From a virus, in IMG/VR virus record IMGVR_UViG_3300030331_000318, positions 1-55,157 of that record: a stretch of 55,157 nucleotides of DNA. One strand, 5' to 3'. The position numbers and the translations under genes are program-made. Below the pieces are notes generated by a model that did no database searches, was not told the DNA's origin, and saw nothing but the letters and a program-made list of their open reading frames with translations. This document shows, piece after piece, positions 3,682-49,976 of the stretch. Within the stretch, counting starts at the first letter, position 1; each line of letters starts with the position of its first letter.

Positions 3682-3688
3682 TTACCAG

Positions 3689-4744: not shown

Positions 4745-4776
4745 AGTTTCCTCCATTGTATTTAAAACTATTAATT

Positions 4777-4822
4777 GATAGAACACCTGTTCTATCGCCT
4801 AGACTACCCAGTCAAAGACTGG
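4777..4822 (-). other. Tandem hairpins in the leader of the AAA+ ATPase gene
   Basis: Two perfect stem-loops lie side by side: GATAGAAC/GTTCTATC with a 4-nt loop (4777-4796), and CCAGTC/GACTGG with a 3-nt loop (4808-4822). They lie 33-78 nt upstream of the start at 4744. No U-tract is present. Likely RNA structures or protein-binding operators in the 5' leader; the regulator is unknown. Confidence 0.5.
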
Positions 4823-10847: not shown

Positions 10848-10877
10848 GAACTCAACTCCTTTAAGTTGTGCAATATT

Positions 10878-11270
10878 ATGAGTGACATAAAAATAGAAAA
10901 AGAAGCAATAGATAAACCTAAAGTTGATGAAAAAACTAAAAGTCAACTTCCTGAACCTGCAGGATATCGTATTTTGATTGCAATGCCTGATGTAGATGAA
11001 AAAACAGAAGGCGGTATTGTTAAAGCATCAAGCACTATTAGAGATGAAGAAGTTAGTAACATATGTGGATATGTTTTAAAACTTGGTCCAGATGCTTATG
11101 CTGATCAAGGTAGATTTCCAAATGGACCTTACTGTAAAAAAGGTGATTGGGTTGTATTTAGAGCTTATTCAGGCACTCGTCTTAAAATTTATGGGAAAGA
11201 GTTTCGATTGATTAATGATGATACTGTAGAAGCAGTAGTAGAGGACCCAACAGGAGTAGTGAGAGCATGA
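10878..11270 (+). CDS. GroES-like co-chaperonin (Cpn10)
   Basis: A 130-residue protein with a Cpn10-type beta fold: GYRILIAMPDVDEKTEGGIV at the start of the domain, a mobile-loop-like stretch KASSTIRDEEVSNICGYVLK, and the closing strands GDWVVFRAYSGTRL and LINDDTVEAVVEDP. GroES analogues in phages (T4 gp31 and relatives) cap the host GroEL chamber to fold the major capsid protein. Placement among head genes fits this. Start at ATG 10878 rather than upstream TTG at 10866. It overlaps the scaffold gene by 4 nt. Confidence 0.85.
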   Translation: MSDIKIEKEAIDKPKVDEKTKSQLPEPAGYRILIAMPDVDEKTEGGIVKASSTIRDEEVSNICGYVLKLGPDAYADQGRFPNGPYCKKGDWVVFRAYSGTRLKIYGKEFRLINDDTVEAVVEDPTGVVRA

Positions 11271-26847: not shown

Positions 26848-27266
26848 TGTATGAATATAAATGTGAAGTAACAAGAGTAGTTGATGGTGATACAGTTGAT
26901 GTAATTATTGATTGTGGTTTTTCTATATTACATAAAGCTAGAGTTCGTATGTATGGTATAGATACTCCTGAATCAAGAACTAGAGATTTAGATGAAAAGG
27001 CTAGGGGTAAATTAGCTTCTAAATATATACAAGATCATATTGATAATGGTGATGAGATAATTATTAAAACCGAAAAAGACAGCAAAGGAAAATTTGGTAG
27101 AATCTTAGGAAAAATATTTATTGATGGTAAAGATATTAACCAGTCAATGATTGATGAACATTTAGCAGTAGCTTATCATGGTCAAAGTAAAACTGATATA
27201 GAACTAGCTCATCTACAAAATAGATCATTATTGATTAAAAAAGGTATCTATAAACCATCATCATGA
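26847..27266 (+). CDS. Thermonuclease family (SNase-like) nuclease
   Basis: A 139-residue OB-fold nuclease. Conserved parts: VVDGDTVDV at the start, RVRMYGIDTPE with the catalytic Arg and then the Glu, and KFGRILGK with the second Arg. These match the active-site residues of staphylococcal nuclease (R35, E43, R87). No signal peptide is visible, so it probably acts in the cytoplasm on host DNA or RNA to supply nucleotides. It is common in marine phages. Confidence 0.9.
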   Translation: MYEYKCEVTRVVDGDTVDVIIDCGFSILHKARVRMYGIDTPESRTRDLDEKARGKLASKYIQDHIDNGDEIIIKTEKDSKGKFGRILGKIFIDGKDINQSMIDEHLAVAYHGQSKTDIELAHLQNRSLLIKKGIYKPSS

Positions 27267-27613
27267 ATGATATAGTAACAATAATACAGCAAGTAGGTTT
27301 TCCTATAGCAGCAGCTCTTGGTCTTGGTTGGTTTATTTATAAATTAATTATGCGTATTGTTGATGGCATGGAAAATAAATTAGATGTTGTTGATGATAAA
27401 GTTGCAGAACAAATAACAGCTATGGAACAAAGATTAGGAACAAAATTAGATTCACAACATGGCATATTAGTAGCTTTGATAGATAGGGTTCGTAGTCTTG
27501 ATAATGAAATTATTAGACAAGATACTTTAATAAAAACTATACTAGGAGTGCCACAATTAATAGATAGCAATAAGATTGCTAAGGCAGATAGAGATGATCA
27601 AAGAAAAGACTAA
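27263..27613 (+). CDS. Single-TM coiled-coil protein, possible lysis accessory
   Basis: A 116-residue protein: a membrane helix near residues 11-31 (FPIAAALGLGWFIYKLIMRI) followed by a coiled coil (MENKLDVVDDKVAEQITAMEQ). Similar single-TM plus coiled-coil proteins are found beside holin genes in marine phages. It overlaps the nuclease by 4 nt and the CsgF-like gene by 20 nt. It is not like CsgE, which would be a soluble periplasmic protein. Confidence 0.6.
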   Translation: MNDIVTIIQQVGFPIAAALGLGWFIYKLIMRIVDGMENKLDVVDDKVAEQITAMEQRLGTKLDSQHGILVALIDRVRSLDNEIIRQDTLIKTILGVPQLIDSNKIAKADRDDQRKD

Positions 27614-28091
27614 ATATAAACTAAGGGCTTTTGGATTTATAAAGTTAATATCCCTAAGTGTATTTTTAATAAATTTTTCATTATTCGTTAATTCTGACGA
27701 ATTATCTTTTAAGTTTAAAAGCCCTTCTTTTAGTGGTATAGGTACATCAGCACATTACTTAACCATAGATAATCAAGAGTATACAAGAAGAGAAGCTTTA
27801 GAAGCAGAAATACAAGCTTTAAAAGAGGCTGCTGAAAGAGATGCGGACAATACGACACTAGCTAGATTTATAAGAAACTTTGAATCTAGAATATTTGCAC
27901 AGTTATCTAGACAATTAGTAGATCAATTATTTGGAGAAAATCCAGCTACTGAAGGTAGTTTTACTTTATTTGATAATATTATTAGTTGGACTTCAGATGG
28001 CACAAACATAACTTTAAATATATTTAATACATTAGATGGAAGCACTACACAAATTACTATTCCTATTGGTGACTTTGGTTTTGGTACCTAG
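27594..28091 (+). CDS. csgF: CsgF-like curli secretion adaptor
   Basis: A 165-residue protein. A signal peptide or membrane anchor covers about residues 11-33. The mature start ELSFKFKSPSFSGIGTSAHYL corresponds, in part, to the CsgF pattern FxFxxPxFGGN...; then a helix RRNFESRIFAQLSRQL-type region, and a C-terminal beta part SDGTNITLNIFNTLDGSTTQ that parallels the CsgF end. CsgF binds the CsgG pore and guides curlin nucleation at the cell surface. ATG 27594 is chosen over TTG 27576. The final 56 nt encode, in another frame, the signal peptide of CsgG. The next gene being csgG strongly supports the call. Confidence 0.8.
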   Translation: MIKEKTKYKLRAFGFIKLISLSVFLINFSLFVNSDELSFKFKSPSFSGIGTSAHYLTIDNQEYTRREALEAEIQALKEAAERDADNTTLARFIRNFESRIFAQLSRQLVDQLFGENPATEGSFTLFDNIISWTSDGTNITLNIFNTLDGSTTQITIPIGDFGFGT

Positions 28092-28878
28092 TTGTGCATC
28101 AACATCAAAATACAATTTACCTTGTTTAACTAATCCAGAAGGAGATTATAAAGACCTAGTAACTATTATAGGTAAAGCAGAATGTTTTTCTGCAGATGCT
28201 TTTATAAATGAACCAATCACTGAAGCAATAAAAAATATACCACAACCTAAAAGAAAGCCAGTTGTAGCTGTATATAGATTTTTAGATCAGACAGGACAGA
28301 GAAAATCTATAGATGGTTTTGCAAGTTTTTCTACAGCTTTAACGCAAGCACCTGTAAATTATTTAATTAGAGCATTAAAGATATCAGATTTTTTTATAGT
28401 TGTAGAAAGAGTAGGTTTTGATCATATTACTAGAGAGAGACAAATAATAAGATCAGGTAGAGAAAAGTTTAATGATAATACACAGCAACAACCCTTACTA
28501 TTTGCTGGCATTATTATAGAAGGAGATATAGTAGATTATAATACTAATCTCAAAACAGGAGGAATTGGTGCAAGATACTTAGGCATTGGTTCTTCAAAAC
28601 AATATAGAGAAGATACAATTGTTGTTTCACTTAGGCTTGTATCAGTAAGCACAGGAGAAATACTGATAGAAACTTTATCTTCTAAAACAATTTTATCTGT
28701 AGCAGTATCAGCAGATGTATTTAGGTACATAGAAGACTATACAAAATTAGTAGAGTTTGAAACAGGTAGTGCTATGAATGAAAGTAAATCAATTGCTATA
28801 CAAGCCGCTTTAGAAACAGCAGTTGTTAATATAATTAATTTAGGTATCGAAAAAGGATACTGGGAGTACAATGAATAA
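28036..28878 (+). CDS. csgG: CsgG-like outer-membrane curlin secretion channel (lipoprotein)
   Basis: A 280-residue protein with a lipoprotein signal peptide ending VPSC (Cys20). The body follows E. coli CsgG closely: PVVAVYRFLDQTGQRKS, FSTALTQAPVNYLIRALK, FFIVVERVGFDHITRERQII, ILVEGDI-like strand, then the hallmark GGIGARYLGIGSSKQY and VSLRLVSVSTGEIL, and a final ETAVVNIINLGIEKGYWEY. CsgG forms a nonameric pore that exports curlins. At the constriction the E. coli Phe56 has a counterpart, but Tyr51 and Asn55 appear replaced (KSIDGFASFST). Length is the family norm (277). It overlaps neighbours by 56 and 8 nt. Confidence 0.95.
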   Translation: MEALHKLLFLLVTLVLVPSCASTSKYNLPCLTNPEGDYKDLVTIIGKAECFSADAFINEPITEAIKNIPQPKRKPVVAVYRFLDQTGQRKSIDGFASFSTALTQAPVNYLIRALKISDFFIVVERVGFDHITRERQIIRSGREKFNDNTQQQPLLFAGIIIEGDIVDYNTNLKTGGIGARYLGIGSSKQYREDTIVVSLRLVSVSTGEILIETLSSKTILSVAVSADVFRYIEDYTKLVEFETGSAMNESKSIAIQAALETAVVNIINLGIEKGYWEYNE

Positions 28879-29599
28879 AATAATTTATACAATAATATTT
28901 GCTTTTGTTTTGTTAACAAATGCAGATGATAATGAAATATATGTTAATCAAACAGGAAGTAATGCAAGCATAGACTTAGAACAACTAGGTAGTTCTAATA
29001 TTATAGGTGGTTCTGATTCTGTAGCTGGTACTATGACAAAAGCTACTCTTAATGGTGGTAGCATGACTTTAGATATTAATCAAATAGGTTCGTCTAACCA
29101 GTTTTTAACAGGAGGACTTTATGGTTCTGACTTTACTGGATTTTTTGAATTTGATGGTGACTCTAATATATTTGATATAGATTTAGATACTTCTGGATTA
29201 AATGGTGCAGACTTTGTGGATTTAAATATAGACATTACAGGTTCTAGCAATACTTTTGATGTAGATTTAGGTGAATCATCAGCAGTAGATTATCTTAATT
29301 TAGATTGGATTATAGATGGTGATAGCAATGCTTTTGATTATGCAATAGATTCTGAATATGCAACTAACTATGTAGATTTATTTGGTGATAGTAACACTAT
29401 TAATTTTACAGGTAGTGGTTATGGTAATAGTTCTACAGATGCTGGATATTTTTATTTAGACTTAACTGGTAGTTCAAATGTATACAATATTACTCAATCA
29501 TCAACTTTAGCAGCAGATTGGCTAAAAATAGAAAGCAATGGATCAAATCAAAACGTATGTATTATTCAATCTGATTCTGGCACTGCCACTTCATGCTGA
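28871..29599 (+). CDS. Curlin-like secreted amyloid repeat protein
   Basis: A 242-residue protein with a signal peptide (MNKIIYTIIFAFVLLTNA). The first two repeats have curlin QxGxxN signatures (EQLGSSN, NQIGSSN); later ones keep GSSN or GDSN but change Gln to Thr or Asp (DITGSSNTFD, IDGDSNAFD, DLTGSSNVYN). The protein is unusually acidic and ends with two Cys. Curlins are exported by CsgG and polymerise into cross-beta fibres. Position directly after csgG, with an 8-nt overlap, supports the role. The later repeats are degenerate, so amyloid formation needs testing. The final 62 nt overlap the FecR gene. Confidence 0.75.
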   Translation: MNKIIYTIIFAFVLLTNADDNEIYVNQTGSNASIDLEQLGSSNIIGGSDSVAGTMTKATLNGGSMTLDINQIGSSNQFLTGGLYGSDFTGFFEFDGDSNIFDIDLDTSGLNGADFVDLNIDITGSSNTFDVDLGESSAVDYLNLDWIIDGDSNAFDYAIDSEYATNYVDLFGDSNTINFTGSGYGNSSTDAGYFYLDLTGSSNVYNITQSSTLAADWLKIESNGSNQNVCIIQSDSGTATSC

Positions 29600-30632
29600 T
29601 AGTATAGGTGATATAACAGAGTTAAAAGGTTATGGCAGGATTGTTAGAGATGAGCCATATCCTGCTATATTAGATTTTGATATAAATTCGTATGATAATG
29701 TTCAAACTGCTAATGGCAGAATAGGAATAACATTTTTAGATGATAGTCGTGTTAGATTGACTGAGCATTCTAAATTAATTATTGACGAGTATATATTTAA
29801 TTCTAATCCAGATAAATCTAAAATGTCTCTTACTTTTGCAAGCGGCACAATAAGATTTGTTTCAGGTAGTGTAAATAAACTTAATAAAAAAAATGTAACT
29901 TTATCTACACCTACAGCAGAAATAGCAATATTAGGCACAGACTTTACAGTAACTGTAAATGAATTAGGAGAATCTTTAATTATATTGTTGCCTGGTGCTA
30001 ATGGTTTATCTAGTGGTGAAATAATAGTTTCTACAGCTGCAGGTCAGGTAACTCTTAATAAACCTTATCAAGCTACAACAGCTAGTATGTATGAACAGCC
30101 ACCAACAGAACCTGTAGAACTAGATATAGATTTACAGTTTATTGACAATATGTTAATAATTAATCCACCTAAAGAAAAAGTTGCAATAGAAGAAAGAGAA
30201 ATAGCTAGAAGGGATGATTATTTAGACTTTACAGATTTAGATATAGATTTTTTAAATGAAGATTTATTAGCACTAGAAGAGGACTTTGATTATAGTGAGC
30301 TTGATATTGATTATTTATCAGTAGATTTTTTAGAAGACTTATTAGATGTAATAGATGATTTAGATATACAAGAAGAAGATGAACTAAATCAATTTGTTTC
30401 TGCTGTGCCCATAACTGGAACATCTCTGGGTCAAGATTTAGAAACCCAAATAGTAACCATACTACAAGGTGATGAAATAAAAATTATTCGTAATATAAAT
30501 CAATATGTAACTTTAGAGTTAAATGCTGATCAAGGATATTCTGTTTTAATAATACAAGATGGTGTATCAAAAAGTATAACTATTAATAATAGTTCATCAT
30601 CAACAATACGAATATCTCAAGGATCAGGATGA
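29538..30632 (+). CDS. Periplasmic FecR-domain protein
   Basis: A 364-residue protein. A clean signal peptide of 20 residues ends LPLHA. Residues about 25-175 form a FecR domain: NVQTANGRIGITFLDDSRVR, IDEYIF, LTFASGTIRFVSG, and LSTPTAEIAILGTDFTV. Next comes a very acidic stretch (about 225-285) of repeats such as DLDIDFL and DFLEDLL. The C-terminal 70 residues are beta-rich and end ISQGSG. No membrane helix follows the signal peptide, so it is likely soluble in the periplasm or exported. FecR domains occur in sensors and beside CHASE2 cyclases in bacteria; the cyclase gene begins at a 4-nt overlap. Confidence 0.85.
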   Translation: MDQIKTYVLFNLILALPLHADSIGDITELKGYGRIVRDEPYPAILDFDINSYDNVQTANGRIGITFLDDSRVRLTEHSKLIIDEYIFNSNPDKSKMSLTFASGTIRFVSGSVNKLNKKNVTLSTPTAEIAILGTDFTVTVNELGESLIILLPGANGLSSGEIIVSTAAGQVTLNKPYQATTASMYEQPPTEPVELDIDLQFIDNMLIINPPKEKVAIEEREIARRDDYLDFTDLDIDFLNEDLLALEEDFDYSELDIDYLSVDFLEDLLDVIDDLDIQEEDELNQFVSAVPITGTSLGQDLETQIVTILQGDEIKIIRNINQYVTLELNADQGYSVLIIQDGVSKSITINNSSSSTIRISQGSG

Positions 30633-32374
30633 GCAAACATGCAATTTATATATTTATAATTGTAAGTTTTATTTATATTACAGTACAAAATTTTAGTTTT
30701 GTAGAAACTTTAAAACTTAAAACTTTTGATGTTTTTGTAGAAAAACAAGAACCATCAGGTAATTTTGTAATTTTAGATATAACAGATAAGGATGTTAGAG
30801 ATAGGGGAGGATACCCATTTCCTAGAAAAGATTTAGCTCAGATACAAGTAGACCTAATTAACAAAGGTGCACTAGGTGTTGGTTGGGTTATAAGTTTTGT
30901 AGATGCAGATAGATTTAATGGTGATCAAATTTTTGCAGATTATTTAAATTATATACCTACAGTAGTAGCAACTTTTGAAACAGATAATAATTTAAAACCA
31001 CCTACAACAGGAACTGTAATACTAGGACAAGATGTATATGGTATAGAGGCTAGAGGATATATACCAAATATAGACTTAATAAAAAAAAATGTACAAGAAG
31101 GTTTAGTATCTGCACCAGTAGATATAGATAACTTAGTCAGAAAAATTCCTCTATTGTATAAAACAAATGATGGCTGGACTCCATCGTTTGGTACACAAGT
31201 GTTAAAAGTATTAGCTGGTGCAGACACTTACATAATAAAGACAAGTGAAGCAGGTATAGAAGAAATAAGAGTTCCTGGTATACCGCCTACACCTTTAGAT
31301 AATTTAGGTAGAAAGTGGATAAGTTGGGTCGACACTCCTAAAACAACATTAAAAGAAATGGATGTTGAAGGTAAGTTTGTTTTTATAGGAGTAACTGCTA
31401 AAGGAGTGATGCCACAAGTAGCTGTACCTACAGGTCTTGTTTATCCGCATCATGTGCAAGCAGCTTTAGCAGAATCAATACTTATAGAAGATAGTCCTTA
31501 CATACCTAATTATGCTTTGTTACTAGAAATAACTATATTAATAGTATCGACATTATTAGTTTGGCTAATATTAAACACTTTAAATTTAAGTTATGGATTA
31601 TTAGGTTTCGGTTTAGTATTATTTGGCACATCTTATTATGGTATTCATTTAATAAGAAGTGGTTTATTAGTAGATGTAACATGGTCTTTAATAGCAAGTT
31701 TTTTTACTGGAGCAACTGCATTCTATTTAAATTACAGTGAGCAGTACAAATTAAGACAACAGATTAAAAAACAGTTTGAACATTATTTAGACCCTAGACA
31801 AGTTAAAAAATTACAAGACAATCCTGAATTATTAAAGTTGGGTGGAGAAAAAAGATATTGCACCTATTTATTTACTGATGTACGAGGCTTTACTAGTTTA
31901 AGTGAACAGTTAGAACCTGAAGAAGTAACAGAGCTAATGAATAAAGCTTTAACTATACAAGCCAAAGCTGTGCAAGATAATGGAGGTATGGTAGATAAAT
32001 ATATAGGAGATGCAATGATGGCTATATTTAATGCACCTATAGAATTAAATAATCATGAAGATGCTGCTATAAAAACAGCAATTCAAATACGACACGACAT
32101 AAAAGCAGCACAGTTAGGTATTGATATTGGAATAGGATTAAATTCTGGAGAAGCTGTGATAGGTAATATGGGAAGTGAAACACGATTTGATTATACAGCG
32201 ATAGGTGATGCTGTAAACCTTGGAGCTAGGATGGAATCAAGTTGTAAAGAGTTAAATACAGATTTAGTAATATCAGAACACACTATGAAAGCTAGTTCTT
32301 ATAAATTAAAATCATTAGGACAAATAAAAGTAAAAGGTAAAAATAAATCTACTAAGGTTTATACAGAGAGGTAG
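30629..32374 (+). CDS. CHASE2-domain adenylate cyclase (class III)
   Basis: A 581-residue membrane enzyme. TM1 at residues 5-20; CHASE2 periplasmic sensor at about 25-290 (DITDKDVRDRGGYPFPRKD, then PHHVQAALAESIL near its end); three TM helices at about 295-367; cytoplasmic class III cyclase domain from 409. Catalytic residues present: metal-binding D417 (FTDVRGFTS) and D461, purine-binding K457 (VDKYIGD), T523 (DYTAIGD), N530 and R534. The Lys/Thr pair fits an adenylate cyclase of IIIb type, making cAMP from ATP. All key residues are intact, so it should be active. It is rare for a phage to encode this enzyme. Confidence 0.95.
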   Translation: MSKHAIYIFIIVSFIYITVQNFSFVETLKLKTFDVFVEKQEPSGNFVILDITDKDVRDRGGYPFPRKDLAQIQVDLINKGALGVGWVISFVDADRFNGDQIFADYLNYIPTVVATFETDNNLKPPTTGTVILGQDVYGIEARGYIPNIDLIKKNVQEGLVSAPVDIDNLVRKIPLLYKTNDGWTPSFGTQVLKVLAGADTYIIKTSEAGIEEIRVPGIPPTPLDNLGRKWISWVDTPKTTLKEMDVEGKFVFIGVTAKGVMPQVAVPTGLVYPHHVQAALAESILIEDSPYIPNYALLLEITILIVSTLLVWLILNTLNLSYGLLGFGLVLFGTSYYGIHLIRSGLLVDVTWSLIASFFTGATAFYLNYSEQYKLRQQIKKQFEHYLDPRQVKKLQDNPELLKLGGEKRYCTYLFTDVRGFTSLSEQLEPEEVTELMNKALTIQAKAVQDNGGMVDKYIGDAMMAIFNAPIELNNHEDAAIKTAIQIRHDIKAAQLGIDIGIGLNSGEAVIGNMGSETRFDYTAIGDAVNLGARMESSCKELNTDLVISEHTMKASSYKLKSLGQIKVKGKNKSTKVYTER

Positions 32375-32378
32375 TATT

Positions 32379-32846
32379 ATGAAAAATATATTTAAAAATC
32401 TTTTAGGTGCAGTAGCACCGACACTAGGTACAGCGTTGGGTGGTCCTATGGGCGGTATGGCTGCTAATGTTATTTCAGAAGTTTTAGGTGTGCCAAATAA
32501 TCCTAAAGCTATAGAGAAAGGTATAGCAGATGCTACACCAGAACAACTAGCTGAAATAAAAAAAGCTGAACTAGCTTTTGAAGCAGAAATGAAAAAGCTA
32601 GAAGTTGATGTCTTTGCTCTTGAAGCACAAGAAAAACAAGATGCAAGAAAACATTTTTCTAAAGATTGGACAGCAAGAATAATAGGTATAGCTACTATAG
32701 GAGGATTTTTAGGTTATATATTTTTAGTAACATTACAACCACCTGAACAAAACTCAGAGGCTCTTATTAATTTAGTATTAGGTTATCTTGGTGGTTTAGC
32801 TAGTGCAATAATATCTTTTTATTTTGGTGCATCAAATAAAGATTAA
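32379..32846 (+). CDS. 3-TM holin family protein (GTA holin type)
   Basis: A 155-residue protein. N-terminal Gly/Ala-rich hydrophobic stretch (APTLGTALGGPMGGMAANV), a charged helix rich in Ala/Glu/Lys, then DWTARIIGIATIGGFLGYIFL and a last helix LVLGYLGGLASAIISFYFG. This matches the 3-TM holin family associated with gene-transfer-agent release and phage lysis. Holins open the inner membrane at a set time so that the endolysin reaches the wall. The lysozyme gene starts 11 nt downstream. It follows the cyclase by 4 nt. Confidence 0.8.
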   Translation: MKNIFKNLLGAVAPTLGTALGGPMGGMAANVISEVLGVPNNPKAIEKGIADATPEQLAEIKKAELAFEAEMKKLEVDVFALEAQEKQDARKHFSKDWTARIIGIATIGGFLGYIFLVTLQPPEQNSEALINLVLGYLGGLASAIISFYFGASNKD

Positions 32847-32856
32847 GGAGAATAAA

Positions 32857-33300
32857 ATGAATATATCTCAAGAAGGAAAATCTATTATAAAAAAATTTGA
32901 AGGTTGTAAATTAGAAGCCTATCAATGTCAGGCAGGAGTTTGGACAAATGGATGGGGAGCCACTAAAGATGTGAAAGAAGGAGATGTTTGGAGTCAATCA
33001 TATGCAGATGAAAGATTTGATGGTGATATAATTGAGTATGAAGACTACGTTAATAAATATGTAGAGGTGCCTTTAGAACAACATCAGTTCGATGCTCTTT
33101 GTTCATGGGTATATAATTTAGGTCCAAAAAATTTTAGAGAAAGCACTATGTTGAAAAAAATTAATGAACAAAATTTTGATGAAGTTCCAAAAGAAATAAG
33201 AAGATGGAACAAGGCAGGTGGAGAAGTTTCACAAGGTTTAGTACGCAGAAGAGAAGCTGAAGCATTGCTTTGGGATAATAAAGAATGGTATGAGGTGTAA
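32857..33300 (+). CDS. GH24 phage lysozyme (endolysin)
   Basis: A 147-residue T4/P22-type lysozyme that cleaves the NAM-NAG bonds of peptidoglycan. The catalytic pattern is Glu-8aa-Cys-5aa-Thr: FEG near residue 14, YQC with Cys in place of the usual Asp, and WTNGWG with the Thr. Cys at this place is found in some active phage lysozymes, and T4 lysozyme tolerates it. The core VPLEQHQFDALCSWVYNLG and RRREAEALLW match the family. A TAAGGAG site fixes the start at 32857. No signal or anchor is visible, so holin release is needed. Confidence 0.92.
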   Translation: MNISQEGKSIIKKFEGCKLEAYQCQAGVWTNGWGATKDVKEGDVWSQSYADERFDGDIIEYEDYVNKYVEVPLEQHQFDALCSWVYNLGPKNFRESTMLKKINEQNFDEVPKEIRRWNKAGGEVSQGLVRRREAEALLWDNKEWYEV

Positions 33301-39585: not shown

Positions 39586-41337
39586 ATGAGTTTAATTAGT
39601 ATTGCAAATGAATTAGAGTTTGTGCCACAAAATCAACTTGTGGAGTTTATGAATAATCCTAATTCTAGATATCCACAATACTTAGTTTTATCAGAAATAC
39701 AAAGACGTACACGATTACAAAAGATGTACGAAAATCAAACAGCAAAAATGAATAGACCTCAATCTACAGTAGCTGAAGAAGCTGTAATGGAATTTGCTAA
39801 TCAAGGTGCTGTGTCAAGTATGCCTGGAATCTCCTCAATCCCTTCACCAGATGCTGGGTTATCGAACATGGCACCGCCTTCTCCTATGCAGATGATGGCT
39901 AATGGTGGTTTAACTTCTTTACCAGGTACAAATATTGGCACGTTAGATGATTTTAGAAGAAGAATGATAGAAGAATACATGGCAGCAAATGTAGGTGCTA
40001 CTACACAAGAAGCTATAGCTTATGCCAATCAGAATGCAGAAACTATTTATAATGAAAGACTTAGAGAATCTCAATCTATAGAAAGACAACCCTTAAATTT
40101 ACAGTCTTTTGATCCTGATCAAATAGCATCAAATGTTTTAGCAGGTGCAGAAGCAAGTGCAGAAAGAAGAAAAGAACTTGCTTTAGATGGTTTTATGGGA
40201 GATAGATTAAAACGTGAAGGTATAGATATAAGTGATTTATCGTTAGGTGATGTAATAAGTGAATATGACAAGTTATATAGAAAAGATAATCCTATACAAG
40301 GAGCTTTGATGAATTTACGTGATTCATCTTTTGGTCAAGGACTTTTAGATTTGACTGTAGGTGAGGACAGAAAATTTGATATTGGTGATGCTGCTAAACT
40401 AGCTCTTGGAGGAGCAGGTATAAAAGCCGCCTCTAGGTATGGTCCAAGTATATTTCAAGCAGTTCGTAATAGATTAGGTTTGGGTTCTGCAACACCAGCA
40501 TTACCAGCACCCGCAACTGTACCTGCAGTTGTTTCTAGAGGACTAGGCACATCAATGGTTCCATACGTAGCTCGTCCTCCAGCTGTTGTACCACCAGCAG
40601 GTCCAAGTATGTTTAGTAGATTTACTACTCCTATTATTAATTTTGTAAAAAATAGACCATTTACAACGACAGGAATTGGATTATTAGCAGCTCCACCAAT
40701 TTACAATTTTTTTAATCCAGAGGATGAGCCAGAAAAATTTGATATGAGTACCTTATATAGCGATATAGACTTTGAAGATTTAACAAAAAATAGACAAACA
40801 AAAACAGCACCTAGTGGAGCTGAAAGAGTAGCAGCTTTAAATCTACCTAAAGTAGAGATAGAACCATTTACAGAAGAAGATAGACAAAGAGAGTTAGATG
40901 TATATGCTTTAGGAGCACTTGCAGAAGCTATTGGTGGTTCTAAAAATTTTGGTGAGGCTGGAGTTAAACTTGGAACAGCAGCTAGAGGTTTACCTGCTGT
41001 TAGAGAGCAACAAAGAAAACGTAGTCTTGAAGCAGCATCTGCTCAAAGAGCACAAGCAATAGAAGAATTCAAACTTGCTAATGATTTAGAAAGAATTGAT
41101 ATTGCTAGAGTTCAGGCTGAAAATACTGGTAATAGAGTTCTTGCAGGAGAACTAGCAAGTGTAAGAGCAGAAATTGCAGCTATACTTAAAGATAGTGTAG
41201 GTGTACTAAGTACAGCACAACAAGCTAGATTATCACAATTAATACAAGAAGCTGAAATTCTTAAAATGGATTTATATGGTAAGTTAGGTATGGAATATGT
41301 TCCACCTGGTGGCGATATTATAACAAATCAAAAATGA
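39586..41337 (+). CDS. Internal virion / ejection protein
   Basis: A 583-residue protein. N-terminus: a short motif on tail proteins (ELEFVPQNQLVEFMNNPNSR, RYPQYLVLSEIQRR) common in marine phages. The middle has disordered Pro/Ala/Val segments and a hydrophobic stretch near residue 360 (FTTTGIGLLAAPPIYNFF). The C-terminus is a long helix (QRKRSLEAASAQRAQAIEEF). It overlaps the giant gene by 4 nt, so they are likely made together and packaged as ejection proteins. Confidence 0.7.
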   Translation: MSLISIANELEFVPQNQLVEFMNNPNSRYPQYLVLSEIQRRTRLQKMYENQTAKMNRPQSTVAEEAVMEFANQGAVSSMPGISSIPSPDAGLSNMAPPSPMQMMANGGLTSLPGTNIGTLDDFRRRMIEEYMAANVGATTQEAIAYANQNAETIYNERLRESQSIERQPLNLQSFDPDQIASNVLAGAEASAERRKELALDGFMGDRLKREGIDISDLSLGDVISEYDKLYRKDNPIQGALMNLRDSSFGQGLLDLTVGEDRKFDIGDAAKLALGGAGIKAASRYGPSIFQAVRNRLGLGSATPALPAPATVPAVVSRGLGTSMVPYVARPPAVVPPAGPSMFSRFTTPIINFVKNRPFTTTGIGLLAAPPIYNFFNPEDEPEKFDMSTLYSDIDFEDLTKNRQTKTAPSGAERVAALNLPKVEIEPFTEEDRQRELDVYALGALAEAIGGSKNFGEAGVKLGTAARGLPAVREQQRKRSLEAASAQRAQAIEEFKLANDLERIDIARVQAENTGNRVLAGELASVRAEIAAILKDSVGVLSTAQQARLSQLIQEAEILKMDLYGKLGMEYVPPGGDIITNQK

Positions 41338-44300
41338 GTTTACATAGATTACCTGATGGCAGAGTAATAGAGATAAAAGATAATCTTGGTGATCAAGAGT
41401 TAATTGCTTTGCAAAATCATTTAGCTGAATTATATCCTGGATATTACACACCTTATATAGAAGAAGCAGAAAGAACTTTTGGTGGTGAAATATTTAATGC
41501 AGTTAAACAAATACCAGGCGGATTTATCAATTCTTTTCTTACTGCAGGAGAAGGTGTTGTAAATTATTTTGACCAAGGTAATGATAATGCTGTTGGTAAT
41601 CTTTTAAGAAATGCTCAAGAAGCTGTAAGTGATACTTATAGTCCGTTAAAAGGTTATGAAGATGCTTACTCTACAGGACTAGGACAAGGGCTTGGTTCAT
41701 TTGCTTCTTATTTTGTTCCAGGTACATTAGCATCTAAAGCTGCACAAGGCACTAAAGGTTTTCAAGCTTTAAGTCCTGCAGAAAAATTTGCTAGACAATC
41801 AGCAGCAGGTATAGCAGGTGTTTCAGGTTTAGCTGTGCCAAGCGGTATAGCAATAGCTGGTAGAACTATGGAACAAGCTAAAGCAATGGGTGAAGAAGTT
41901 TCTCCATTTCAAGAATCTTTAGCAGAAACATTAGGTGGTGTTATTGGTTTTACAGAAACAATTACACCTGCAAGATTTTTAAGATATGTTCCTAAATCAG
42001 CAGGTAAATTATTACCCAGTGACAGATTAATGTTTGCTTTACAATCAGGTGGAATAGAAGGAGCTCAAGAAGCTTTTGCAGGAGTAGCACAAAATGCTGT
42101 AGCAAGAGGTATTTACAGTGACAAAGTTCCTATTTTTGAAAGCACTTTAGATGATTTTACCATAGGTGGTGGTGTAGGTTTTATAGCTGATTTAGTTACT
42201 CGTGGTTTAATGGATAAACGTGGCATAGGTCGAGAATATTTATTAGATAAAGAAAGAGAACAAAGAAAAGTTACTGAACAACAAAGATTTAATAAGAGAA
42301 AAGATTTTAAAAAAGCCATAGATGAAGGTGCAGTTGTATTACCTTTAGAATCTGAAGTAGATGTTATTAATACACAAGATGCACAGGTAGATGTTCCTGT
42401 TGTGGAATCTACTTTAGAGTTTGCAGAAATTCCATTATTAGAAGAGTTTGAAATAATACAGAACCCAAATGGTACCGCATCTATAATAGGGATAAACACT
42501 AGTAAAGATTATGGTGTTTTTTCAAATATAGAAGAAGCAGCAAAACAAGCAGTCGTATTGCGTAAAAAACTTAGAAATGATTACGTTGATGCTGCGGTAA
42601 AACAAAATTTATCAGTTAATGGTTTATATGGTAATGGCACAGCATATACATTAGGTAGAAAGGTTTATGATCCTATAAGTAATTTAATTCCAGTACAAGT
42701 TTTAGCATCTTTAGATTCACGTATTAATATTGCTAGAAAAACAAAAGCACAAAAAGAAAAAGAAATAAAACAAAAACTTGATCGTTCAATCATAAATGAT
42801 TTACTAGGTGATCAACAATTAAATGAAGAACAATTAATTCAACTAGAAGAACAACTTCTAAAACAACAAACAAGTTTTCCAATCAAAGCTACTAAAATAG
42901 ATGCATCTAGTTTAGTAGGTCAATTGCACACCCGTGCTAGAAAAAAAGGTATTGCACCTAAATCATATTACACTCCACAAGAAGCTAAAAAAATATTATT
43001 GCCTGCTGACTTTAATTCTTTGATGTCAGAGAAAGCTCATGTTATTGAAAAGACACAAAGAGAAACAGGTGATCGTGTTGCTATAGCTAGATCAAGAGAA
43101 AAGATAGGTGTTACAAGAAGTGATTTCAAAAAAGTTTTTAAATCTAAGAATATAATTTCAGATTTAAATTCACCTGCATTTGAATATATAGCTGAACAAA
43201 TTACAGGTACTAAATCATTTAATAATATGAATCGTGGGCAAAAAGAATTATTGATTAATGAATTAAAGAGATTGCCTAGATTTGATGTTGAAACAAAACT
43301 GCCTGACTTTAGACCAAGAGCATATAGCGTTAATGATCTTAATAGATTATATACAGAATATAAAGGTCAAAGAATTACTAACAATGAAATAAAAGCATTT
43401 GTAAAAAATAAACAAACAGGAAAAAATTTAACACCTAAAGAATTAAAAGCTTTAAGAGAAGATTTAGTTAATAGTGGTAGGGCAGATAAAGTAAACAATA
43501 GATTAGAAATGTCTGATGATTTTGAAAAACGACAAGCTAAACGAGCACAAAGTTTGAACGAATCAACAGAAGAGTTTGCACAAAGACTAAGAGAAACAAC
43601 AGCTTTATCAGAACAAGAAATAAACAATGTTTTAGAAAAAGATATTAAGGATGTAGTTGAGACTGATGAACTCTTAGCATTGCCTGCTCCAGAATCTGTA
43701 GGCAAATACAAAAAACTATTTGAGTTTGCTAGAAAAAGATTAAATCAATTAGGGTTAAAAGATATAGCATTAAAGTTTGATAATGCTTTGAAAATGTCTA
43801 CAGAGATTAGATTTGTAGATGGTAAGCCTGTCTTTAATCCTGTACCTTTTGAAAATAAAGCTTCATTTGATATTCCTATGAGAACAATTCTTGCAGCTAT
43901 GAATAGAATTGACCCTGATGGTACTTTAACTGAAGCAGAATTTCAAAGTAAACTTGCAGGTCTTATGGATCATGAAGCTATTCATGCTCTTAGAGAACTA
44001 GACTTATTAACAGAAGATGAATATCAAACATTAGTAGAATATGCTATCGAGAAGTTGCCTGAAGATTTAAAAAGAGGTATTACAAGAGCATATCCAGATA
44101 ATCTTGTTATTCGTGATGAAGAGTATGTTGCAGAATTATTTAGACTTTATAGAGAAAATCCAAAACAAATAATTGGAAAACCAAAAAGTATTATCAAAAG
44201 AATTATTGATTTCTTTTTTGGTGCTGTTGATTCTATTTTTGGTGCTGGCTTTAGAAGCCCTGAAAGTATATTACAAGATTTAGATACAGGAGTTATAGGT

Positions 44301-47300
44301 AGCAGAGCAAGAAATAAAGTAAGAAGTTTAAGAGAAACACAATTAAAACAAGCAGCAGGTTTAACAAATCCAGAATCTAGATTTTCTAAAGAAATAGACA
44401 CAGTAAGAAATTTATTAGCTACAGCAGAATCTGAATTATATACAGCAGAAAGTATTTTAAATGTCGATGGTCCTTATGTTGGTAAGAAGAGATTCCAAAA
44501 ATTATTTTCTGATATGTTAAGAGCACAAAACAAAGTTGATAATTTAAGAGAAGAATTAAAAGATTTAACAGGAGGTGTAAAAAGTTTTGAAAAACGAAAT
44601 GCAGTTGAAGTTGGAGAACAATTAAGCAATAAAGAAAAAGAAGAATTGCTTGATGGTGAATTTTACTATCATGCTACTTCAACAAAAGCAGCTAATTCAA
44701 TAAGAGAAAAAGGAATAAGACTTACCGATGATGATGGTAATCTTTTACCTTCTAATTTTATTAGAGCAGAAACTGGACAAAGATATCAAGAATCTCCAAA
44801 AATATTTGCTTTTAAAAATCCAGCTGATGCTGTTGCTTTTTATAGAGGAGTATATTCAAACTCGGAATTAGACGAATTATCTTTAGTAAAATTTAGAAAA
44901 TCTGATTATAACTTTGAGCCTGATCCAGGAAATACTGGAGAACCTATGTTTAGTCAAACTGCTAAGAATCTTAACATTAATCTAGATGATGGCGAATATA
45001 AAGCTTCTGTACAAACAACTTTAGGTACATCAGCAATAGAACCAGAAGACATAGTAGGTGTAAGAACATTTAAAGAGTTAGAAAATTCTTTTGCAGACCC
45101 TACACATTTTCGTGGTTATGGAAGGCATCGTGAAACGATGCTTGATGTTGGTGGTAATCCTTATGGTTTTGCTAAGATTATATCTGATTCTTTTGAATCT
45201 AAATCAAGCCCTGAAATTGTATCAAGATTTTCTAAAAGTGGTTTAACTGCACAAAATACTTTATATCCAGGAGAAACTGAACGAAGTCTTTTAACATTAT
45301 ATAGAAGTAATAAAGGTAATTTAACTGCAAATAATTTACAAGCATTACATAAATCTGTAAGTCCACAATCTAAAAGAAAACATAAGTGGAGAGATATCAA
45401 AGAAATTAGAAATGATTTAAGAGATGCTATCACTAAGAATATGGATTATCTTTGGTACGAGAGATGGGGTGTGGGCATTCCAAATATAGTTGGCGATGTT
45501 AACATGAATGAATTTTCTGCAATCTTTGGTATTACATCAGCACAAAGCAAACCAGAACAAAATCTTAAAGATACTTTAAGAGCTATGATTGTAGCAAGAA
45601 AGATTGATCCAGTTGAACAACCAAAAAAATATATAGCTGAACTCAAAAAGTTTGGTGTAGCTATGAACAATAATGCTAGATTAAATGATATAGCTAAAGT
45701 ATATAAAACAGGTTTATATAATAGACAAGGCACAGGACAAAAGACTGCTACTTATGCTTTAGAAATATTAGATGCAGCTAATAATAGGTTTACACCTTTT
45801 TCTGTAATTGATAGGCATATGCTTAGAAAGTTTGGTATTGAGCTACAAGAAGGACAGAAAACTACTGAACAAGAATATAGAATTACACAAGGTTTAATAT
45901 CTTTACTTGCAGCAGAAAATATTACAGTTAATGGTGAACCAAGAAACTTTACACCAAGACAAGTCCAAGCATTGCTATGGGCACATCAAAGATATTCTGG
46001 TCCAACTAATGTAACTAATGAAGGCAGTTATAACTCAGCGGTATCTGCAGCACAAGAAGAAATATCTGATTTAAAGAATTTAGAAAGTGAAGGATTGTTT
46101 TCTAAAGATAGAACATTCTCTGGTGTTTTTATTCATCAGCCAAGATTTAACAGTAAAGCAAAATCAAATCTATTTGATACTGACTTAAAAAATAATATGT
46201 ATCAGATGATTGTTAATGAAGCACCAACTGTTTTATTTGAATTTAAGATGGGCAAAACAAGAGGATATTTACCAGAGAATATTGACCAGTCAATAAATTT
46301 TGATCAGTTCTTTGACTATCAAGAGAATATGTTGAATGCCATAACATCAGGCAATAAGATTAGATTCTTGCGTGAGCTAGGAATACCACATGAAATTACA
46401 AGATCAGCTGGAACGTATGATGGTTACCTAAATCCAAATATATTATTAAAGCTGCCTGGAGCAGAACCAAGATTAGTTCGTGCTTTAGCACAAATATTTA
46501 CTGATGCATTTATGCAAGATTCTGCAATAACTTTGAGACCAACAAAACAAGGTGTTTTTCAGACTGGTTTAATTATTGAGAAATCAGATCAAAGTTTATT
46601 TACTGTTGCTGAGTTACAAGATTTAAATAGAAGTTTATCTGAAATGACTAGAGGAGGAGAGCAAGTAAACTTTACATTACAAGCTACCGATAAAACAGGT
46701 ATAGTTTTAATTGATCCTATTTCATTCAATAAAGATAGACCTTATACTAAACAAGATGCAAATAATTTTGCAGAAAGTATTAGACCAATTCTAGGTGGAA
46801 AAGGTTATAATTTAAAAAGATATGGACAAGAAAGCGAATACATTGAATACGGAGCAGAAAGCAGCTACAGCCCAGGAACTAGATCAGCTATACGAGGACT
46901 TAGGGATAGAGAAAGTCTCCTCGAATCATCCGATTTACAACGAGCCGCCCTCCGTGATCTTTACATCCCCGCCTACGAAGCCTACAAAAAGTTCGCCAAA
47001 GAAATAGGCTTAACACAAGAACAAGCACCTAATCTAAATTTAAAACCATACGAACAAGAAAACTCAGCACTTGCAGGAGAGACTGTATTAGCTGATATAG
47101 ATATAGCCGAGGTACAACGAGAAGCTCGCAGGAGAGCAGAAAGATATTCTAGGGGTAATATACCTAGATTTAATACAAATGCTAGTCCTGTAGCTCTTGC
47201 CATAGCTTTTGAATATGAAGCTAATCCAAAGAAATTTGATGTACCGCCAGATATATCAAGTAGATTTTATAGAGATTATGCCAAGATACCTAAAGGTTAT

Positions 47301-49976
47301 GAAGGTGTCTTAGATGATATAGGCGGTGCAGAGCAACCAAGCGAATCATTCGGTCAAAGTATTTTAAAATCTTTAGGATGGCGAGGCAGTATAGGTAATT
47401 GGTTAAGTGATGCAAGAACACAGTTTATTGATAAATTAAATGATGTTGAAAAAGGAATAATTCAATCAGCTGAAAAGAGTGCTGAAGTAAGAGAATTAGA
47501 AAATCTTGCAGATACTAGTGCTATTGCAGCTTTGCGTCATGCTGATAGAGCAAGAGGTATATTTGCAGCCATGTTAAAAAATGGTGTGCCAACACTCGAA
47601 AAAGGATTGACCTCTGTTAAAGACTTTGAGTATGGAGGATTGTTAGAAATATTTGCACCTCTGTTTGCTGATCCAGAAGTAAACCTAGAACAACTATTTA
47701 AGATATATGCGATAGCACAAAGAAGTGAAAGGTTAGCTATGGAAGGAAAAAAAGTTCCAGTAACCGAAGAAACAAAAATTAAAGCAAAACAAATAGAACA
47801 AGACTTTCCTATTGTTAAAGAAGTTTGGAATAAGTATCAAGCATATAACAATGAAGTGATTAAGTTTGCAGTAGATTCAGGAATACTTAGTTACGATAGA
47901 AGTAAAAATGAACTAATAAAAGATATAGTTGAAAATACAGATAACAAAGCAAAAGATTTAGTTAATTTAGAACTAAATGATTTGTTAAAAATAGCTGCTG
48001 CAGAAGGAATAGAAACTAGAGGCACAGCACAGATATGGTTAGATAATTCAGATTATTATCCTTTCTATAGACAGATGCAAGACGAAACTATTAAAGGTCC
48101 AAATATTGCAGCAGGTTATATTTCAGGTAATCCACTAAATATAAAGTTAAAAGGTAGTAAAGAAGATATAAATATCTCGCCATTAGAAGCTATTGCACGA
48201 AATAATTTAGCGATTGTTACAGCAGCTATGAAGAACGAGGGTCTTGCAAGACTTGCTAGAAACTTTGAGCTTGCAGGTATGGCAGACCGTGTACCAGCTA
48301 AAAAAGCAAAAGGTGCTGACATAATGCCAGTATTTATAGATGGTGAAAGAGTATTTTTCAAAGTTGATGATCCATTATTAATAAATGGTTTACAAGCAAT
48401 GGGCATAAATGATCAAGGTATTTTAGGACAAGTATTAGGAGCACCTGCAGGGTTCTTGCGAGAAACTATAACTCGTGATCCAGGATTTATGTTTGTTAAC
48501 TTATTAAGAGATAGTCTGTCAACTGCAGTAACTTCAGGAGCAGATATTACACCTATAGTGGATACATTTGATAAATTTTTTAATTCAAATTTAACTGAGT
48601 TAGAAAGATTTGGAATAGTAGGTGGGTACGATTTTAGTAATGACCCACAAAATATTAAGCAGTATATAAAGAAAGAATATAGAAAAATGGGTATAGGAAA
48701 TAATGGTGCCTTGACTGCAACAGATGCTGTTATAAAACTTTGGGATTGGTTAGGAGAATATACAACAAAATCAGATGGAGCAACTCGTTCTGCAGTATAT
48801 GATAAAATTTTTGAACTAACAGGTAGTCAAGCAGAAGCCGCCTATCAAGCATTAGAGATAATAAACTTTGGTAGACGGGGAGCAAGTCCAATATTTAGAC
48901 TTGTAACTACAGCAGTAACATTCCTTAATGCAAGACTTCAAGGGTTAGATGTATTAGGTAGAGCACATTTAGGAAGGTATTCTGCTGTCAGTAAGTTTGG
49001 TAAAGACCAAACACTTGAAGACATGAGAAATGGTATTGCTTTGGGCACTTTTCAAAGAGGCATGTTTTTAGCATTATTAACTGGTCTTTATTATGTGATG
49101 TTTAGTGATGAAGAAGAGTACAAAAATGCTAGACGAGAAGTAAGAGATGACAACTGGATTATCCCTCTATTTGAGGGAATGCCAGCTTTAAAAATACCTA
49201 TACCATTTGAAGTAGGTGTGCTATATAAGGTCGTGCCTGAAAGAGCTTTAGACTTAGCGATAGGAGATGCAGACCTTGATGAAACAATGAAGACTTTAGG
49301 TAGACAGCTCGGAGTTACACTAAAAGTAGACCTAACACCACAAGTAGTAAAACCTTTAATAGAGGTTATCAATAATAGAAATAATTATACTGGTCAAGAT
49401 ATAGTTCCATATTACATGGAGCAAGGCATGGAAGCAGGATATCAATCTAGATACAGTACAAATGAATTTGTGAGACTTCTGGGAGAAACACTTAATATTT
49501 CTCCGCTTAAGTTAGAATACTTTCTAAGAGGCTATACAGGAACGATAGGCACTTATGTTCTATCTACAGTAGATGCAGTCACAAGACAGTTTACCGACAG
49601 AGATGTAATCATGCCAAGAATAGATTCAGCTCCATTGCTTAGAAGATTCTTTCAGACAGAGCTTGGTGGCGGATATCAACAACAGTTTTACGAGCTTAGA
49701 GCAGAAAGCGATAAGTTTATACAAACATTAAATAGTTTGAAAAGAGAGGGTAGATTAGAGGAAGCACAGGCATTCCTTTTAAATAATCAAGGCTTGGCAA
49801 GAACAAGACCTCAAATACTTGCACTAGAAAGATATATGAATAACTACAGAAAACAAAGAGACAGAGTTTTAAACTCAGACCTATCCCCTGAAAACAAAAA
49901 GGCTATACTAGAGCAGTTGGATTACGAAAGAGATATTAGATTAATGTATTTGAATACACTAAAGGAACAAATTTGA
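41334..49976 (+). CDS. Giant polyvalent virion protein (2880 aa): metallopeptidase, ADP-ribosyltransferase-like and LPD domains
   Basis: The N-terminal 250 residues alternate Gly/Ala-rich hydrophobic stretches, as in injected proteins. HEAIH at residues 880-884, with a later acidic ligand candidate (RDEEYVAELF), gives a zincin metallopeptidase. Residues about 1108-1170 (FYYHATSTKAANSIREKGI, then RAETGQRYQESPKIFAF) resemble ADP-ribosyltransferases of polyvalent proteins. Residues 1260-1570 are a further domain (GITSAQSKPEQNLKDTLRAM) close to DUF7178-type. Near residue 2525 is an LPD38-type motif (TFLNARLQGLDVLGRAHLG). Polyvalent proteins are packaged and injected to disarm or reprogram the host. 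Being the largest gene in the tail block, it probably fills the role of T7 gp16-like ejection protein. It overlaps the convergent gene by 18 nt. Confidence 0.85.
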   Translation: MSLHRLPDGRVIEIKDNLGDQELIALQNHLAELYPGYYTPYIEEAERTFGGEIFNAVKQIPGGFINSFLTAGEGVVNYFDQGNDNAVGNLLRNAQEAVSDTYSPLKGYEDAYSTGLGQGLGSFASYFVPGTLASKAAQGTKGFQALSPAEKFARQSAAGIAGVSGLAVPSGIAIAGRTMEQAKAMGEEVSPFQESLAETLGGVIGFTETITPARFLRYVPKSAGKLLPSDRLMFALQSGGIEGAQEAFAGVAQNAVARGIYSDKVPIFESTLDDFTIGGGVGFIADLVTRGLMDKRGIGREYLLDKEREQRKVTEQQRFNKRKDFKKAIDEGAVVLPLESEVDVINTQDAQVDVPVVESTLEFAEIPLLEEFEIIQNPNGTASIIGINTSKDYGVFSNIEEAAKQAVVLRKKLRNDYVDAAVKQNLSVNGLYGNGTAYTLGRKVYDPISNLIPVQVLASLDSRINIARKTKAQKEKEIKQKLDRSIINDLLGDQQLNEEQLIQLEEQLLKQQTSFPIKATKIDASSLVGQLHTRARKKGIAPKSYYTPQEAKKILLPADFNSLMSEKAHVIEKTQRETGDRVAIARSREKIGVTRSDFKKVFKSKNIISDLNSPAFEYIAEQITGTKSFNNMNRGQKELLINELKRLPRFDVETKLPDFRPRAYSVNDLNRLYTEYKGQRITNNEIKAFVKNKQTGKNLTPKELKALREDLVNSGRADKVNNRLEMSDDFEKRQAKRAQSLNESTEEFAQRLRETTALSEQEINNVLEKDIKDVVETDELLALPAPESVGKYKKLFEFARKRLNQLGLKDIALKFDNALKMSTEIRFVDGKPVFNPVPFENKASFDIPMRTILAAMNRIDPDGTLTEAEFQSKLAGLMDHEAIHALRELDLLTEDEYQTLVEYAIEKLPEDLKRGITRAYPDNLVIRDEEYVAELFRLYRENPKQIIGKPKSIIKRIIDFFFGAVDSIFGAGFRSPESILQDLDTGVIGSRARNKVRSLRETQLKQAAGLTNPESRFSKEIDTVRNLLATAESELYTAESILNVDGPYVGKKRFQKLFSDMLRAQNKVDNLREELKDLTGGVKSFEKRNAVEVGEQLSNKEKEELLDGEFYYHATSTKAANSIREKGIRLTDDDGNLLPSNFIRAETGQRYQESPKIFAFKNPADAVAFYRGVYSNSELDELSLVKFRKSDYNFEPDPGNTGEPMFSQTAKNLNINLDDGEYKASVQTTLGTSAIEPEDIVGVRTFKELENSFADPTHFRGYGRHRETMLDVGGNPYGFAKIISDSFESKSSPEIVSRFSKSGLTAQNTLYPGETERSLLTLYRSNKGNLTANNLQALHKSVSPQSKRKHKWRDIKEIRNDLRDAITKNMDYLWYERWGVGIPNIVGDVNMNEFSAIFGITSAQSKPEQNLKDTLRAMIVARKIDPVEQPKKYIAELKKFGVAMNNNARLNDIAKVYKTGLYNRQGTGQKTATYALEILDAANNRFTPFSVIDRHMLRKFGIELQEGQKTTEQEYRITQGLISLLAAENITVNGEPRNFTPRQVQALLWAHQRYSGPTNVTNEGSYNSAVSAAQEEISDLKNLESEGLFSKDRTFSGVFIHQPRFNSKAKSNLFDTDLKNNMYQMIVNEAPTVLFEFKMGKTRGYLPENIDQSINFDQFFDYQENMLNAITSGNKIRFLRELGIPHEITRSAGTYDGYLNPNILLKLPGAEPRLVRALAQIFTDAFMQDSAITLRPTKQGVFQTGLIIEKSDQSLFTVAELQDLNRSLSEMTRGGEQVNFTLQATDKTGIVLIDPISFNKDRPYTKQDANNFAESIRPILGGKGYNLKRYGQESEYIEYGAESSYSPGTRSAIRGLRDRESLLESSDLQRAALRDLYIPAYEAYKKFAKEIGLTQEQAPNLNLKPYEQENSALAGETVLADIDIAEVQREARRRAERYSRGNIPRFNTNASPVALAIAFEYEANPKKFDVPPDISSRFYRDYAKIPKGYEGVLDDIGGAEQPSESFGQSILKSLGWRGSIGNWLSDARTQFIDKLNDVEKGIIQSAEKSAEVRELENLADTSAIAALRHADRARGIFAAMLKNGVPTLEKGLTSVKDFEYGGLLEIFAPLFADPEVNLEQLFKIYAIAQRSERLAMEGKKVPVTEETKIKAKQIEQDFPIVKEVWNKYQAYNNEVIKFAVDSGILSYDRSKNELIKDIVENTDNKAKDLVNLELNDLLKIAAAEGIETRGTAQIWLDNSDYYPFYRQMQDETIKGPNIAAGYISGNPLNIKLKGSKEDINISPLEAIARNNLAIVTAAMKNEGLARLARNFELAGMADRVPAKKAKGADIMPVFIDGERVFFKVDDPLLINGLQAMGINDQGILGQVLGAPAGFLRETITRDPGFMFVNLLRDSLSTAVTSGADITPIVDTFDKFFNSNLTELERFGIVGGYDFSNDPQNIKQYIKKEYRKMGIGNNGALTATDAVIKLWDWLGEYTTKSDGATRSAVYDKIFELTGSQAEAAYQALEIINFGRRGASPIFRLVTTAVTFLNARLQGLDVLGRAHLGRYSAVSKFGKDQTLEDMRNGIALGTFQRGMFLALLTGLYYVMFSDEEEYKNARREVRDDNWIIPLFEGMPALKIPIPFEVGVLYKVVPERALDLAIGDADLDETMKTLGRQLGVTLKVDLTPQVVKPLIEVINNRNNYTGQDIVPYYMEQGMEAGYQSRYSTNEFVRLLGETLNISPLKLEYFLRGYTGTIGTYVLSTVDAVTRQFTDRDVIMPRIDSAPLLRRFFQTELGGGYQQQFYELRAESDKFIQTLNSLKREGRLEEAQAFLLNNQGLARTRPQILALERYMNNYRKQRDRVLNSDLSPENKKAILEQLDYERDIRLMYLNTLKEQI

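Follow-up and report, generated by a model that had tools for sequence, protein, structure and literature searches.

A FecR–CHASE2 adenylate cyclase pair as the candidate signalling arm of a phage curli module

Curli-type secretion genes accompanied by FecR and adenylate cyclase genes are known from pelagiphages. A type VIII secretion system (T8SS, curli)–FecR–cyclase module was reported in HTVC023P-type and myovirus pelagiphages together with the observation that Pelagibacter itself lacks every component of this secretion machinery, and transfer between viral families was proposed (PMC9599517). The same module is present in the isolates HTVC008M, whose host is Pelagibacter, and Melnitz; CsgG and CsgF of Melnitz have been discussed as a possible lysis pore in a paper whose main text contains neither the word cyclase nor the word FecR (PMC9004378). 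Here we analyze a window of 55,157 nt, positions 1 to 55,157 of the virus record IMGVR_UViG_3300030331_000318 (58,182 bases in IMG/VR), in which a FecR-domain gene (29538-30632) and a CHASE2 adenylate cyclase gene (30629-32374) share 4 nt, exactly as predicted earlier from the DNA letters. That original prediction regarded phage cyclases of this build as hardly described; the curli–FecR–cyclase module is already published, FecR and cyclase included (PMC9599517), and the window adds another member. What is new here is the conservation of the cyclase, a general FecR–CHASE2 pairing, the scarcity of receptors for cyclic AMP (cAMP) on the host side, and doubt about a kinase label in the published module.

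Gene context argues that the pair is functionally linked to the phage curli/late-gene operon. We put the probability at roughly 0.5 that it forms the signalling arm of the phage curli module and directs cAMP to a receptor other than the host CRP. The interval singled out initially, 29538-32374, captured the pair correctly but missed the curli genes directly upstream and the holin-like and lysozyme genes downstream, and it is these neighbors that make sense of the pair.

Profile searches recovered all three predicted domains, the FecR, CHASE2 and Guanylate_cyc matches each lying above the curated Pfam cut-off. The cyclase protein comprises CHASE2 (PF05226, 5.9e-25, residues 14-307) and Guanylate_cyc (3.4e-20, residues 410-575), and its cyclase domain aligns with solved class III cyclases (CyaB 3r5g, 6.1e-27; 2w01, 3.3e-25). 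Hydropathy reveals a single hydrophobic stretch at the N-terminus plus a membrane region around 292-322, at a threshold that left further segments ahead of the cyclase domain unseparated; together with the Pfam match it places CHASE2 between membrane segments with a cytoplasmic output, as in CHASE2 receptors. Class III cyclases rely on two metal-binding Asp residues, an adenine-binding Lys and Thr/Ser/Asp, and a transition-state Asn and Arg. Translation and alignment identify the full set in the window cyclase, namely the six residues named at the outset: D417, K457, D461, T523, N530, and R534.

To assess conservation, we aligned the cyclases of the window, HTVC008M, Melnitz, and 80 viral stretches, the best 80 of 187 related stretches found by patterns in the CHASE2 part and not in the catalytic part (n = 83; many are near relatives and the counts are not independent). 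Fragments ending ahead of a position were excluded from its count. D417 is kept in 83/83 sequences, K457 in 82/83, D461 in 82/82, N530 in 80/81, and R534 in 81/81, while position 523 is T in 40, S in 40, and D in one of 81. Consistent loss of catalytic residues in related phages, which the original prediction had named as evidence that would count against it, was thus not seen; the exceptions are Melnitz and one viral stretch (L066), in which K457 to N is the sole change at that position. Ratios of nonsynonymous to synonymous substitution rates (dN/dS, NG86 method; 13 pairs, of which 12 were measurable and one saturated) range from 0.02 to 0.19 for CHASE2 and from 0.05 to 0.26 for the cyclase domain, the latter exceeding the former in 6/12 measurable pairs. 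Judged by these sequence features, the window cyclase is probably enzymatically active. In a tree, all 84 viral cyclases of more than 500 residues group together, separate from the bacterial sequences, which are the 80 best matches of a capped scan; within the limits of that bacterial set, the single viral clade points to one old acquisition.

The FecR protein starts with a hydrophobic leader that by eye resembles a signal peptide and continues with a FecR/cell-surface-signalling fold (residues 50-209), a low-confidence acidic stretch (~207-288), and a C-terminal beta domain (~298-361). Hydropathy at the threshold used found no membrane segment in its 364 residues, in agreement with the periplasmic, unanchored protein originally envisaged. 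In the AlphaFold2 model (mean predicted local distance difference test, pLDDT, 71.5) only a short N-terminal helix precedes the FecR fold, which superimposes on the cell-surface signalling domain (CSSD) of PupR (6ovk) with Z 16.1 over 137 aligned residues and a root-mean-square deviation of 2.5. The window protein thus shares the periplasmic FecR/CSSD-type fold of the PupR/FecR anti-sigma regulators; unlike them, it has neither a membrane anchor nor a cytoplasmic anti-sigma region and is predicted to be secreted alone. Residues 20-114 also matched a cell-surface anchoring domain (5ix9, Z 6.7), but the score fell under the trust level of the tool and the match was not used. A sequence-profile search of FecR against the PDB returned nothing, and a single-sequence search returned chance matches only.

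In 68 of the 69 viral loci that extend 1.5 kb or more upstream of the cyclase, FecR is found on that side, a count that takes in loci where a second curlin gene or other genes intervene; the pair is therefore not a chance arrangement, and the original view that its members belong together holds. The association extends to bacteria. Of the bacterial CHASE2-cyclase loci flanked by 5 kb or more on each side, 16/43 have FecR within 1 kb and 2/43 have it at 3-5 kb. FecR-domain genes have been reported beside CHASE2 cyclases (PMC5498481, PMC9239204) and beside a CHASE2 kinase (PMC5192318). Sinorhizobium meliloti CyaD1, a CHASE2 cyclase, resembles the window cyclase in having an adjacent FecR-domain gene, smc02177; it differs in working with a CRP-type receptor, Clr, and known targets, and curli genes go unmentioned in the available text (PMC5498481). 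In Campylobacterota a FecR gene likewise accompanies a CHASE2 cyclase, in a cluster that adds a phosphodiesterase and a TPR protein and is described, as far as the available text goes, without curli genes (PMC9239204). The Burkholderia BiofilmReg operon also encodes a periplasmic FecR-domain protein beside a CHASE2 receptor; there the output is a histidine kinase and the FecR protein carries LysM (PMC5192318). CHASE2 occurs in 12/117 genomes of the SAR11-type family; two of these occurrences are phage contigs, and the other 10/10 native CHASE2 proteins carry a SpoIIE-type phosphatase. At two native loci (L216:6969-12987 and L217), the CHASE2-SpoIIE phosphatase gene, a TPR gene, and FecR stand in a row on the same strand, making up a native host system around this sensor pair. 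Cyclase, kinase, and phosphatase outputs beside FecR–CHASE2 argue for a module with interchangeable outputs; by gene neighborhood, FecR–CHASE2 appears to be a general bacterial pairing that is independent of curli. The general rule suggested is that FecR-domain proteins partner CHASE2 receptors with cyclase, kinase, or phosphatase outputs.

In the window, the pair is embedded in a compact run of genes on the plus strand:

27263..27613, plus strand: small protein of 116 aa, one N-terminal membrane segment (hydropathy, residues 4-22), then a coiled coil
27576..28091, plus strand: CsgF-like protein (PF10614, 2.3e-15)
28036..28878, plus strand: CsgG outer-membrane curli pore (PF03783, 2.9e-54), with a lipobox-like N-terminus by eye
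28871..29599, plus strand: curlin-like repeat protein with recurring G-x-S-N motifs (assigned from repeats, conservation, and a weak PF07012 match)
29538..30632, plus strand: secreted FecR-domain protein of 364 aa (PF04773, 2.9e-10, residues 54-141)
30629..32374, plus strand: CHASE2 sensor, membrane region, and class III adenylate cyclase, 581 aa
32379..32846, plus strand: holin-like protein with two C-terminal membrane segments (98-120, 127-147; phrog_1544, 1.3e-22, no assigned function)
32824..33300, plus strand: phage lysozyme (endolysin; PF00959, 4.9e-47; phrog_7, 8.4e-59)

The part from CsgF to the cyclase is kept in many marine phages. The CsgF-like open reading frame (ORF) was assigned a TTG start by the tool, and an internal ATG may be the true start. 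The match of the curlin-like protein to PF07012 (E 0.0094, 16.3 bits) is under the cut-off of 20.7; its model is all-beta (pLDDT 80.0, predicted template modelling score 0.74) and has no match in the PDB at E 0.001 or better. The scanned ORFs around CsgG included no evident CsgE gate. The holin-like gene, so named from its topology and neighbors, begins 4 nt past the cyclase stop and is followed by the lysozyme gene. A lysozyme gene lies within 3.5 kb downstream of the cyclase in 26 of the 58 viral loci that extend 3 kb or more in that direction.

Like the published module in HTVC008M and Melnitz, the window has small protein(s), CsgF, CsgG, curlin, FecR, and adenylate cyclase in the same order. 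It differs in three respects: a second curlin between FecR and cyclase is missing, holin-like and lysozyme genes come directly after the cyclase, and the "histidine kinase" of the published module is not recognizable as a kinase (PMC9599517). The second curlin of HTVC008M (L002:8604-9929) has five stretches of curlin repeats and also matches a PA14 domain. One or two histidine kinases (HK) are described as preceding the module (PMC9599517); by position, the small membrane/coiled-coil protein is probably this HK. A relative of it stands upstream of CsgF in 52/53 viral loci, and the protein measures 92-116 aa across the window and the isolates. No kinase family was found in the small protein(s) with Pfam at E 10 or NCBIfam at E 1, and if the protein is indeed this HK, the kinase label looks doubtful. 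The counterpart gene(s) in HTVC008M (L002:4866-5428) and Melnitz (L003:5210-5848) likewise look like proteins of the small membrane/coiled-coil type, with no kinase domain.

In the canonical bacterial curli operons sampled, unlike in the window, FecR and cyclase were not found as neighbors. CsgF was found in 6/385 alphaproteobacterial genomes, five above cut-off; within ~9 kb of the five CsgF-CsgG loci examined in full, a small sample, neither FecR nor cyclase was present (0/5). Conversely, neither CsgF nor CsgG occurs in the flanks of bacterial CHASE2-cyclase loci (0/80, the best 80 matches). From these neighborhoods, bacterial curli loci and FecR-cyclase loci seem separate. A bacterial curli–FecR–cyclase operon, considered as a donor, was not found in the five curli and 80 cyclase loci. 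The viral gene order is reported to resemble that of alphaproteobacterial curli modules, and an alphaproteobacterial origin has been argued (PMC9599517).

The large terminase places the window virus. Its best match is DSL-LC04 (60.9% identity), followed by HTVC027P (59.1%), 023Pt_psg01 (57.2%), and HTVC023P (52.3%); by this single marker, the virus is an HTVC023P-type phage. SAR11-type genomes were located with a SAR11 rRNA probe among 385 alphaproteobacteria; two matched, with both probe sites inside bacterial 16S genes. In the SAR11-type family, class III cyclases occur in 3/117 genomes. Two are above cut-off, and both of these sit on contigs that bear the whole phage module (L218, L219; G443:C11, G407:C1), one of which also carries a terminase and a portal of the same families as those of the window. 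Module contigs in two SAR11-type assemblies hint at the host, with binning artefacts possible.

Receptors for cAMP are scarce in this family. The cyclic nucleotide monophosphate (cNMP)-binding domain was found in 5/117 genomes versus 88/115 in a sample of the class. The CRP-type helix-turn-helix HTH_Crp_2 was above cut-off in 1/117 (22/117 at E 0.001, the rest being weak partial matches), and the one clear CRP/FNR protein (G438) is FNR-like with a cysteine cluster by eye. Ribosomal protein S7, a control, is present in 96/117 genomes, indicating that they are fairly complete. A receptor supplied by the phage was considered and rejected: the cNMP-binding domain PF00027 was found in 0/14 viral records, the window included and many of them fragments, and in none of 39 different window proteins scanned with Pfam, a part of all its ORFs. 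By domain content, the canonical cAMP route is nearly absent on both the host and the phage side. No paper on cAMP receptors of SAR11 was found in a limited literature collection.

These observations suggest how the pair could work. The FecR protein would be exported to the periplasm, where CHASE2 would read it as a partner, and FecR–CHASE2 would report on the condition of the envelope or of the CsgG/curlin apparatus that the phage builds. The membrane-bound cyclase would then produce cAMP inside the infected cell. Since genomes of the likely host family hardly ever carry a CRP-type receptor, cAMP would bypass the host CRP regulon; it would act on a receptor not yet recognized, of phage or host, and most plausibly time a late step, either pore/fiber deployment or lysis. 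We infer this reporter function, and its cAMP receptor, beyond what gene content gives. A more tentative extension is that the phage equips its host with a foreign second-messenger channel, with an unrecognized, perhaps phage-encoded receptor serving the curli/lysis program. In the sampled family, the lack of native class III cyclases and near-lack of CRP-type receptors would mean that the messenger is read by such a receptor.

Several observations weigh against the reading of the pair as a signalling arm of the curli module. Two isolates of this phage type, HTVC023P and HTVC027P, yielded no match to the cyclase, and the module is therefore dispensable. The Melnitz cyclase (L003:9917-11968) has lost the catalytic Asn (N530 to S), which we take to be the transition-state residue, and may be weak or inactive. 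For 32 of the 58 loci with enough downstream sequence (3 kb or more), no lysozyme gene turned up close to the cyclase, so the link to lysis is not general. In S. meliloti, smc02177 near cyaD1 proved dispensable for plant-signal perception in the published test (PMC5498481).

The original prediction had cAMP acting on the host CRP network, and a role of cAMP in driving curli expression, as exerted by cAMP-CRP in enterobacteria, has been discussed (PMC9599517). The canonical, conserved cyclase speaks for this route, but the scarcity of cNMP-binding and CRP-type proteins in the SAR11-type family, together with their absence from the viral records, leaves this route almost no receptor. We consider it unlikely in SAR11-type hosts; the host of the window phage is itself assigned indirectly, and a host outside that family would revive the idea, as most genomes of the class sample encode cNMP-binding proteins. 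Doubtful, yet less so, is a lysis-timing device in which CsgG forms an outer-membrane pore and the FecR/CHASE2-cyclase reports envelope state for release. The adjoining holin-like and lysozyme genes fit it, as does the pore role proposed for Melnitz CsgG (PMC9004378); the majority of loci with no lysozyme found, and the structural or unassigned genes that follow the cyclase in HTVC008M and Melnitz, do not. Moreover, we know of no link from cAMP to lysis.

Still less probable is that cAMP leaves the cell, for example through the phage CsgG pore, and acts outside as a cue or is a by-product. The near absence of host receptors, the outer-membrane pore encoded in the operon, and the failure to see a CsgE gate near CsgG are compatible with export, but an inner-membrane exporter was not identified and the idea is purely inferential. 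We give equally little credence to the cyclase being a passenger or scaffold beside a CHASE2–FecR part that alone matters. The substitutions in Melnitz and L066 would suit a dispensable catalytic function; the same residues are kept in all other sequences, and the cyclase-domain dN/dS stays low and exceeds that of CHASE2 in only half of the measurable pairs. The preferred reading, a signalling arm of the curli module with a receptor other than CRP, concerns SAR11-type bacteria, which are among the commonest cells in the ocean. If the hosts lack the receptor, as the sampled genomes suggest, the published view leaning on enterobacterial-style cAMP regulation needs replacing, and the module offers a way toward a new cAMP target or a new viral use of cAMP.

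The Melnitz cyclase, besides its substitution, bears a C-terminal extension. Elsewhere in the window, a tRNA search found none, and promoter-like sites were rarer than in shuffled sequences, so that no promoter is claimed. The genes for portal and capsid flank one for a GroES-like Cpn10 protein (10866-11270, 2e-09). On the minus strand, positions 1371-4786 hold a row of genes for a DUF2201 metallopeptidase/VWA protein, a DUF3150 protein, and a protein with a weak AAA ATPase match. The gene at 41334-49976 encodes a protein of 2880 aa with an LPD38 domain close to its C-terminus.

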